From assembly GCA_013821605.1 (NCBI GenBank), contig JACDGP010000021.1, forward strand, positions 1-54,435: 54,435 nucleotides of DNA. Direction: 5' to 3'. The DNA is from Herpetosiphonaceae bacterium. GTDB taxonomy: Bacteria > Chloroflexota > Chloroflexia > Chloroflexales > Kallotenuaceae. The position numbers and the translations under genes were made by a program. Under the pieces are notes generated by a model. That model saw nothing but the letters and a program-made list of their open reading frames with translations, had not been told where the DNA came from and did not search any database. Numbering within the stretch: position 1 is the first letter of the stretch; each line of letters opens with the position of its first letter. Shown in pieces: positions 45,805 to 49,285 of this stretch.

Positions 45805-47106
45805 TTAAGTGCCTCCTACCGCGCCCACCACCGCCTCGCGTCGCACATTACGTTGCTCCCCGCTCCTTAAATCGCGGACGACCACTTCGCCCTTAGCCAA
45901 TTCGTCGGGACCTACGATCAACGCGAACGGGATCGTCTTGACCGCCGCTTCTTTAAGCTGTTTTCCAAGTTTATCAGGAGCCAGGGCCGTAATCGTTGCT
46001 ATGCCGGCCCGTCGCAGTTCGCTGGCCAGACGCAGCGCCTCGCCTGCTAGCTCCGCACTAAAAATGGTGACATAGGCGGTGACTGCACCCTGACTTTGTG
46101 GTCCTAGCCCAAGCTCTGTCATCACGATCTGCAAACGTTCAATGCCGAAGGCGGTCCCAACCGTCGGCACCGCGCGATCTGCGAAGGTGCCGATCAAGTT
46201 GTCATAACGCCCTCCACCCAGCAGCGACCCAATCGGCGGTTGCTCGATCACCGCCTCGAAGACCGTGCCTGTATAATAGGACAGGCCACGCGCTAACCGC
46301 GGTGCAACGTCATATGTGGCCGGATCGATCCCCAGGTCTTGCAAGTAGCCGACGACGGCGCGTAACTCTTGCACTGCTGCCGCGCCCCGTGCATCACTGC
46401 CAAGCTGCGCTGCGACAGCCTCTAGCACTTCTGCCGTAGGACCGTCGAGTTGCGTAAAGCGTATAATCTCCTCGGCTGCTTCCGCTGCGATGCCACCCTG
46501 CAGCAACTGTTCGCGCACGCCTTGCGCCCCAATCTTGTCAAACTTGTCGATGGCACGATATACACCACCCGCCGCCGCTTCGTCCACGCCCACCACCCGC
46601 GCCAGTGCGCTTAAGATTTCGCGGTTGTTCAACAGGACACGGAACCCTCTGAAGCCCAGGGCTTGGAGCGCTTCGCTGATCACCGCGATAATTTCGGCAT
46701 CGGCCAGCGGACCACCCGCTCCCACCGTGTCGAGGTCGAACTGGTAGAACTCGCGGAAGCGTCCTCGCTGCTGTCGTTCGCCGCGGTACGAGGGTCCGAC
46801 CGCCCAGCGCCGGAACGGCAGTGTGATCTCGTTCGGGTACTGTGCGATCACACGCGCCAGTGATACTGTCTGATCATAGCGCAAGGCCAACCGGTCATCG
46901 CCATATTGCAACCGGTAGATCAACTTCTCGTCGTCACCCAGCTTGCCCGCGATTGTATCTTCGTACTCGACAATCGGCGTTTGCATCGGCTCGAAACCAT
47001 ATCTTGTGGCGACCGCAGTCAAGGTGCTAATAATATACTGCCGCAGGCGCATGTCGCCCGGCAGATAATCTTTCATCCCTTTATAGGTTTGTGCTTTGGC
47101 TGGCAT
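45805..47106 (-). CDS. hisS: histidyl-tRNA synthetase
   Basis: A 433-residue class II synthetase. Motif 2 appears as RGERQQRGRFREFYQFD, the histidine-binding site as LARGLSYYTGTVFE, and motif 3 as GGGRYDNLIG. The C-terminal anticodon domain (VTAYVTIFSAELAGEALRLA) is complete. AAGGGG lies before the ATG. It is the last gene after era, 17 bases downstream. Confidence 0.96.
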   Translation of the reverse strand: MPAKAQTYKGMKDYLPGDMRLRQYIISTLTAVATRYGFEPMQTPIVEYEDTIAGKLGDDEKLIYRLQYGDDRLALRYDQTVSLARVIAQYPNEITLPFRRWAVGPSYRGERQQRGRFREFYQFDLDTVGAGGPLADAEIIAVISEALQALGFRGFRVLLNNREILSALARVVGVDEAAAGGVYRAIDKFDKIGAQGVREQLLQGGIAAEAAEEIIRFTQLDGPTAEVLEAVAAQLGSDARGAAAVQELRAVVGYLQDLGIDPATYDVAPRLARGLSYYTGTVFEAVIEQPPIGSLLGGGRYDNLIGTFADRAVPTVGTAFGIERLQIVMTELGLGPQSQGAVTAYVTIFSAELAGEALRLASELRRAGIATITALAPDKLGKQLKEAAVKTIPFALIVGPDELAKGEVVVRDLRSGEQRNVRREAVVGAVGGT

Positions 47107-47123: not shown

Positions 47124-48542
47124 TTATGACTTCAACTTCTTAATATCGTAGCCCAGCCAGTGCAACGCCGAAGGATCGCTCCGCCAATCCTTCCGTACCT
47201 TGACCCACAAATCCAGAAACACTGGTCGGCCCAGCAGCCGTTCGATCTCATAACGCGCCGCTGCCCCAATCTTCTTGAGCATCTGGCCCCGGTCGCCAAT
47301 GATGATGCCTTTATGCCCATCGCGCTCGACATTGACCGTTGCACGAATATACAGCCGTTCGCCGCGCTCTTCCCATTCCTCGACTTCGACCGCCACGCCA
47401 TGCGGCACTTCTTGTTGTGTATTCAGCAGCACCTTTTCACGCACCAGTTCAGCGACTTGCTCGCGTGGCGACAAATCGGTTTGCTGATCCTCTGGAAAAA
47501 GCCTGGGACCCATCGGCAAGCGTTGGATGATCTCCTCCAGCAGCCCTTCGATGCCCTCGGCTTCTTTCGCCGAAACGGCGACCTCCATCTCCCACGGTCC
47601 CATCTCCTGAAACGCTTGCAAATAGAGATCGACATGGTGGGCGATATCGACCTTGTTTAGAACCAGGATCGTCGGCTTATGTGCTTTTTTGATCGACTCG
47701 GCAATTATGCGATCCTGGGATGTCGGCGGCTCGGTTGCATCAACCACGAAGCAGATCACATCAGCGTCTGGGATCGAGCGCCGTGCCGCTTCGACCATGT
47801 ATTCACCCAACTGTGACTGTGGTTTATGCAAACCGGGCGTGTCGACAAAGACGATCTGTGCCTGAGGACGATTCAAGATTCCGCGTACCACAATCCGCGT
47901 CGTCTGTGGCTTGGGCGATACAATCGAAAGCTTGGCACCGAAGTAGGCGTTCAGCAATGTAGACTTGCCGACATTGGGCTTCCCCACCAGGGCTACCAGT
48001 CCCACCCGTACCTCTTCATCCGAAATCCGTGGTGGTGCTGCTACCTCGTCGTGTTCGACCTCGTCCTCACGTGCGCCTGCGTCGCTGGTGACCTCCGTGG
48101 CAAAGACTGCCGCTCCTTCGGTCCCCTCCTCATCTGATCCAAACACTTCGACGATCGAGGGCTGGAGCCAGCGCAGTCGCTGCGCGATCTCGAACTCCAT
48201 ATCCGCGATAAACTCAATCCCCAAGGCTCGACCCGTCCGGTCCCGATCAATGATCGCTTGGTAGGGCAAATCGACATGCGTATCCGGCGTCTCCTGGCTG
48301 AAAGTCAGCCGGAGTACGGTGTCGTCATGATCCAGATGAACCTCAGGATGCGTGAGCGCATCGCGCAACGCCGTGACCGGTAGGTCTTTGCCGATCTCAA
48401 CATGAAACGCGACGATTTGTCCCGCCGCGTCCAGTAAAAACATCCCTGGAAACTCAGCCTGATCGCTATCTTCGCCTTCGTCGATTGGCGTGAAGTAGGC
48501 ATACAGTGTGCGTGCATCCGGATCAAAGGTCAATTCAAGCAT
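47124..48542 (-). CDS. era: Era GTPase fused to two N-terminal DUF2283-like units
   Basis: A 472-residue protein. Residues 178-472 are a complete Era: G1 GKPNVGKST (187-195), DTPGLH (G3), NKVD (G4), and a C-terminal KH domain with GHKGIIIGDRGQMLKKIG. Residues 1-115 hold two DUF2283-like units, LELTFDPDARTLYAYF ... GQIVAFHVEI and VLRLTFSQETPDTHVDLP ... GRALGIEFI, joined to the GTPase by an acidic linker (135-177). The start at 48542 has AAGGA six bases upstream. Era assists 30S assembly; DUF2283 is a small domain of unknown function that is not known to me as part of Era. Confidence 0.93.
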   Translation of the reverse strand: MLELTFDPDARTLYAYFTPIDEGEDSDQAEFPGMFLLDAAGQIVAFHVEIGKDLPVTALRDALTHPEVHLDHDDTVLRLTFSQETPDTHVDLPYQAIIDRDRTGRALGIEFIADMEFEIAQRLRWLQPSIVEVFGSDEEGTEGAAVFATEVTSDAGAREDEVEHDEVAAPPRISDEEVRVGLVALVGKPNVGKSTLLNAYFGAKLSIVSPKPQTTRIVVRGILNRPQAQIVFVDTPGLHKPQSQLGEYMVEAARRSIPDADVICFVVDATEPPTSQDRIIAESIKKAHKPTILVLNKVDIAHHVDLYLQAFQEMGPWEMEVAVSAKEAEGIEGLLEEIIQRLPMGPRLFPEDQQTDLSPREQVAELVREKVLLNTQQEVPHGVAVEVEEWEERGERLYIRATVNVERDGHKGIIIGDRGQMLKKIGAAARYEIERLLGRPVFLDLWVKVRKDWRSDPSALHWLGYDIKKLKS

Positions 48543-48550
48543 AGTTATCC

Positions 48551-49285
48551 TTATTGTGTGCCGGTCTGTGGTGCAGCCGGCGGTGGCGGCAGTGGTGCTC
48601 CGCCGGGCAATGTACATACGCCCGCTTGTGTTTTCACTGTCACCTGCGTAAATTTCAAGTTCTTCAGGAGCACTTCCATCTGGTGTTGCCCATTAATATT
48701 GGCCTGGTCGATAACACCGCCATCACAGGCTGCCCGCAAAATTTCTTGCTCGGCGATGCGGCGCGCCTCGGTTTCCAGCCCCGCGTTACCTTTGGTCGCA
48801 ACCCCAGTTTGGCGTTCGTACACCACCGTTTTACTGTTGTCGAGCTTATAGCTCAAAACCTCGGCCGGCGGCAGCGTCAAGGTAACGCTGGTGCCATCGG
48901 CACCGACCAGAATATCTTGATCCCGCAACTTAGACAGATCAAAGCCGGCGATCACGTCGCCATGCGCGATCAACAACAGCTTATCGCCCAGAAACAGGTT
49001 ATATACTGCATTCCCCTGTTGTCCGGCCTGAATCACCTTTTCGGCAATATAGGTCGTCGTTTCAAGCTTATTGAGTGCTTTAATCGACTGAATAACTGCC
49101 GGTCGGCTCGCGTCCACTGCGGTTGGTCGGGCTGCGATCGGGTTAGAAATGGTTGGAAAGAGATTTTTGGTCGCTTTGTTAACCGAAAAATAAAAAAAGC
49201 CCGCGATTGCGATACCTACGAGCGCCAAGATCAGCGCGCCGCGTACACAACCACTGCCTTGTGAAACATCATCATCATAATACAT
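48551..49285 (-). CDS. DUF4230 domain protein, membrane-anchored
   Basis: A 244-residue protein with an N-terminal anchor (about 14-35) and an exported DUF4230 domain: KLETTTYIAEKVIQ, LLLIAHGDVIAGFDLSKL, VTLTLPPAEVLS. A Pro-rich tail ends the chain. The role of DUF4230 is unknown. GAGGATCAGT precedes the ATG, and the stop lies eight bases before the era start. Confidence 0.85.
   Translation of the reverse strand: MYYDDDVSQGSGCVRGALILALVGIAIAGFFYFSVNKATKNLFPTISNPIAARPTAVDASRPAVIQSIKALNKLETTTYIAEKVIQAGQQGNAVYNLFLGDKLLLIAHGDVIAGFDLSKLRDQDILVGADGTSVTLTLPPAEVLSYKLDNSKTVVYERQTGVATKGNAGLETEARRIAEQEILRAACDGGVIDQANINGQHQMEVLLKNLKFTQVTVKTQAGVCTLPGGAPLPPPPAAPQTGTQ

Follow-up and report, generated by a model that had tools for sequence, protein, structure and literature searches.

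Most Chloroflexales encode an Era GTPase with a double DUF2283-like N-terminal extension

The window analyzed here, 54,435 nucleotides from a Herpetosiphonaceae bacterium, carries on its minus strand a complete gene in which one unbroken frame, beginning with ATG, encodes a long N-terminal part followed by the GTPase Era (Table 1). An earlier note on this DNA had described two DUF2283-like units and an acidic linker in front of a full Era with KH domain, and it had put the extension at about 115 residues. While the double unit was upheld by the analyses described below, the length was too short: the folded portion alone comprises about 132 residues, and the whole N-terminal part 178. The gene upstream encodes a DUF4230 protein, and the linkage is conserved: DUF4230 also directly precedes era in members of families f1, f3 and f4, out of the four that make up the order; in family f2, it was not found beside era. 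The histidyl-tRNA synthetase that follows era in the window has a homolog adjoining era in only a few relatives.

Table 1. Coordinates of the fusion gene, its parts and its neighbors in the window (residues are those of the fusion protein)
Feature	Position	Strand	Remarks
Double-DUF2283–Era fusion gene, complete	47124..48542	(-)	472 aa + stop; only Era in genome
Shine-Dalgarno-like AAGGA	48548..48552	(-)	5 bases upstream of ATG; read in sequence
DUF2283-like unit 1, residues 1-56	48375..48542	(-)	strands 3-7, 12-16, 27-31, 33-37, 43-49
DUF2283-like unit 2, residues 64-115	48198..48353	(-)	strands 68-71, 76-80, 88-91, 96-100, 106-112; orthologs over Pfam cut-off
Short C-terminal helices of folded extension, residues 119-131	48150..48188	(-)	
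Acidic disordered linker, residues 133-176	48015..48146	(-)	net charge about -13; pLDDT <50 at 133-174
Era GTPase domain, residues 179-345	47508..48008	(-)	
Era KH domain, residues 378-454	47181..47411	(-)	KH_2, PF07650, E 3e-20
Upstream neighbor, DUF4230 protein gene	48551..49285	(-)	stop 8 bases upstream of era start
Downstream neighbor, histidyl-tRNA synthetase	45805..47106	(-)	17 bases after era; assigned by reading translation

The C-terminal part of the protein matches the Era equivalog NF000908 over residues 179–465 (356 bits, cut-off 237; E = 1e-106), and this match, together with that to KH_2, bears out the full Era that had been claimed. The GTPase motifs GKPNVGKS, QTT, DTPG and NKVD are intact and, as read from the alignment, invariant or nearly so. 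No second Era was detected in the 5.9 Mb genome, the remaining matches being weaker and confined to the GTPase part. Judged by its sequence, the protein is thus the cell's only Era, and a complete one. In having complete G and KH domains and being present in a single copy, it resembles other bacterial Era proteins (NF000908; PDB 3IEV, 1WF3, 1EGA). However, canonical Era proteins are 300–350 amino acids long and have no folded domain ahead of the G1 motif, where the fusion protein has the double DUF2283.

The frame is uninterrupted and has a ribosome site, as had been noted; AAGGA lies five bases upstream of the ATG. Wherever the contig is intact, the extension is in frame with Era, in all four families, and the in-frame fusion recurs in dozens of assemblies that are independent of one another, some of them single-contig genomes. 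An internal start near residue 178 was considered and rejected, as the candidate codons are unconserved: in the window linker they are GTG codons only, located 54, 7 and 1 residues before G1, and the in-frame ATG, GTG and TTG codons of the linker vary between relatives. A purine-rich run lies upstream of some of the linker start codons in relatives; the positions of such codons are scattered, and none is a conserved internal start. With the start conserved, no conserved internal start and this many independent assemblies, the possibility that a wrong start codon or accidental read-through from the upstream gene into Era has produced an artefact is already refuted.

When the window copy was compared with DUF2283 (PF10049), unit 1 scored 20.3 bits, below the gathering score of 23 that serves as the curator's threshold; hence, we refer to the units in the window as DUF2283-like. 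All 22 orthologous extensions tested matched DUF2283 (E ≤ 1; best E 1.5e-8), and no other family matched more than two of these 22. The extensions of several genomes exceed the DUF2283 cut-off, and unit 2 does so in two relatives, with 25.8 and 26.9 bits. In profile–profile comparisons (hhalign), units 1 and 2 matched each other at 95.5%, and they matched the stand-alone DUF2283 proteins of the same order at 96.2% and 97.4%, while a reversed control remained below 1%. On these profile comparisons, the two units are homologous to each other and to stand-alone DUF2283. Stand-alone DUF2283 proteins consist of a single acidic beta unit of about 70 amino acids with no GTPase, unlike the extension of Era, which joins two diverged units in one chain. 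Most of the invariant residues of the extension fall in the beta-turn motif of DUF2283 (LLLD..G, ILD.D..G) and not in an obvious pocket.

An AlphaFold model of the extension alone, built from the 22 orthologs, has a mean pLDDT of 90 and a pTM of 0.83, and predicts that residues 1–132 form two consecutive five-strand units with short terminal helices. Sequence and fold searches found no solved DUF2283 structure and no significant match; as the best VIA-align Z was 2.6, we give the extension no fold name. When viral models were searched by fold, several rows near the top were annotated as DUF2283, none of them below an E of 0.001. Searches for DUF2283 and COG5428 in the literature libraries covered found no paper. 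In the full-length model (pTM 0.43), residues 133–174 of the linker have pLDDT values below 50, and the folded extension and Era resemble two beads joined by a flexible acidic string. Among orthologs, the linker varies in length from 21 to 105 residues. The extension is acidic in 54 of 54 sequences (mean charge -19.6, range -14 to -28), and in the same 54 sequences the linker has a mean charge of -11.7. Stand-alone DUF2283 proteins are likewise acidic.

The extension is present in 67 of 158 genomes of the class, with one copy in each, and all 67 lie within the order of the window, Chloroflexales, where they account for 67 of 82 genomes and represent all four families; none was found in the rest of the class. 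Genome contigs were also scanned with the C-terminal KH region. Named members of the order are Chloroflexus, Oscillochloris, Chloroploca, Viridilinea, Herpetosiphon and the Roseiflexaceae. Chance is ruled out by an extension that 67 genomes have in common. When 400 genomes of the phylum were searched with a profile, the double unit was likewise confined to Chloroflexales; matches outside the order were mostly short open frames, and those that were read are stand-alone DUF2283 genes. Thus, the conservation across Chloroflexota that the earlier note proposed to check proved to be limited to this one order. In other Chloroflexota, the N-terminus of Era is at most a few tens of residues long and has no DUF2283 units; several Eras of Anaerolineae, Thermoflexus and Ardenticatenales have a longer N-terminus ahead of G1, of roughly 25–90 amino acids, also without these units. 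In one genome (G021:C608, L087), the double DUF2283 arm enters an RNase E/G-like frame, which is followed by a frameshift. Since RNase E/G was found in none of the remaining 81 Chloroflexales genomes, we take the contig to be a chimera formed across the acidic, low-complexity linker, and not evidence of an RNase E/G fusion.

When a maximum-likelihood tree was built from the Era part, all Chloroflexales rows formed a single clade (100/100), and rows with the extension occurred on either side of its deepest split. Three rows without the extension (G022, G023 and G039) are nested inside one family. Three further genomes (G018–G020) appear to lack the extension but have fragmented Era frames. Most likely, a single gain at the base of Chloroflexales was followed by at least one loss. 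Given these losses in a few lineages, the extension is accessory and dispensable in evolution. For close pairs, to which the analysis was restricted because distant pairs are saturated, dN/dS values obtained by Nei-Gojobori type counts are about 0.04–0.22 for the extension, 0–0.19 for Era, and mostly 0.07–0.6 for the linker. The extension is therefore under purifying selection that is more relaxed than that on Era, and poor conservation of the N-terminal part, which would have spoken against it, was not observed. We regard the architecture and its evolution, as described up to this point, as very nearly certain.

Era is nearly universal and ranks with the most highly conserved factors of ribosome assembly. 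According to a 2023 review, fusions of Era are extremely rare, which is attributed to steric constraints imposed by the nascent 30S subunit; the most prevalent partners are YbeY, RNase III, CS, SGS and DUF916, DUF2283 is not among the fusion domains named, and how complex Era proteins work is an open question (PMC10582724). The order-wide double-DUF2283 fusion is a new example of these rare proteins, and the sub-threshold DUF2283 score of many of its members may explain why it was overlooked earlier. In the YbeY–Era fusions of Clostridia and others, another protein likewise lies N-terminal to Era, but that partner is an endoribonuclease and assembly factor, whereas here it is a double DUF2283 (PMC10582724). 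Fusions with RNase III, CS/SGS and DUF916 are, similarly, rare lineage-specific additions, with domains that differ from DUF2283 (PMC10582724). The window protein has no YbeY match and YbeY is encoded separately in its genome, as it is in 75 of the 82 genomes of the order; we therefore rejected the possibility that the extension replaces YbeY. In a genus without the Era extension (G022 and G023; L083, L084), ybeY and era are close together but oppositely oriented. With its natural losses and its cultured genera, such as Chloroflexus and Herpetosiphon, the order-wide fusion offers a ready system for the question of how complex Era proteins work, a good clue to the regulation of Era, and a first functional handle on DUF2283.

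As to function, we tentatively favor a protein-docking regulatory arm, an interpretation that we hold with somewhat less than even confidence. The arm, most likely acquired in a single event at the base of the order, consists of two fused DUF2283 units, perhaps representing a covalent version of a dimer, followed by the flexible acidic tether to the GTPase domain. Its partner would be a basic ribosomal protein or an assembly factor close to the platform of the 30S subunit, or else some other cellular protein, and docking would adjust when or where Era acts. Such a role is consistent with a stable predicted fold on a flexible acidic linker. In addition, the frequent location of stand-alone DUF2283 genes beside DUF4258 genes suggests that the fold acts through pairing with other proteins, so that it is plausibly a protein-partner module. 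With a mean charge of about -20, the arm is unlikely to bind rRNA directly; the acidity of the extension and linker argues against such binding and would fit docking to a protein, inhibition or simply solubility. Hence, we consider protein docking or regulation a more likely role for the arm than rRNA binding, and the arm is not likely to be an rRNA-binding part or an enzyme. The earlier suggestion that the extension tethers Era survives in part: a folded module carried by an acidic, disordered linker of variable length would fit a tether, whereas direct attachment to rRNA is unlikely. However, the losses in some lineages would also allow a weak or conditional role for a docking arm, and the acidity could instead serve solubility or autoinhibition.

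Autoinhibition and a nearly neutral passenger are the main rivals to the docking arm. The acidic domain and linker might fold back onto the RNA-binding face of Era, keeping it away from RNA until the pre-30S particle displaces them, as the strong negative charge found in every one of the 54 sequences and the flexibility of a linker of 21–105 residues would permit. Yet the KH region is nearly neutral (mean charge +0.6; +2 in the window) and presents no obvious electrostatic target, and the placement of the domains in the full-length model is of low confidence (pTM 0.43). Overall, we consider autoinhibition unlikely, if the best of the alternatives. That the extension evolves faster than Era and has been lost in some lineages would also be expected of a harmless fusion retained through good folding and solubility; its retention in four families, its low dN/dS in close pairs and its invariant residues make a mere passenger rather less probable still. 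A sensor of ligands or ions that controls the GTPase, for which the conserved acidic residues D7, E30, D38, D99 and D101 would speak, seems improbable: several of these belong to the turn motif common to other DUF2283 proteins, no pocket-type motif was seen, and the disordered linker would make it difficult to pass a conformational change directly on to the G domain.

The arm might, finally, be a domesticated antitoxin that binds a DUF4258-type nuclease of the RelE/ParE fold, either blocking it at the ribosome or recruiting it for rRNA processing. At least eight pairs in which a stand-alone DUF2283 gene directly follows a DUF4258 gene were found in the order, and DUF4258 is among the toxin families of the BECR-fold RelE/ParE superfamily (PMC11980606). 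However, DUF4258 was detected in only 24 of the 82 genomes of the order, with none in the Chloroflexus (g6) and Herpetosiphon (g23) genomes, both of which carry the extension, and an antitoxin role for DUF2283 is deduced from gene order alone. The arm does not class as a type II antitoxin with a co-occurring cognate DUF4258 toxin gene, DUF4258 as a general partner of the arm is unsupported, and a canonical DUF4258 partner is unlikely; we consider domestication of this kind the least probable of the functional readings. A broader version, in which an antitoxin-type module captured by Era at the base of Chloroflexales now docks either a ribonuclease of toxin fold or a ribosomal protein on the platform of the 30S subunit as it matures, is a long shot; if true, it would connect the control of ribosome assembly with the chemistry of toxins and antitoxins.

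One of the gene pairs lies in the genome of the window itself (G000:C67; L250:467-721, plus strand), where the DUF4258 gene and then the stand-alone DUF2283 gene have a toxin-antitoxin-like arrangement. In another family of the class, a frame of 158 amino acids (L248:570-1046, minus strand) has DUF2283 at its C-terminus (residues 81–129), and its N-terminal half resembles, by eye, the DUF4258-like neighbors, so that it may be a natural DUF4258–DUF2283 fusion.
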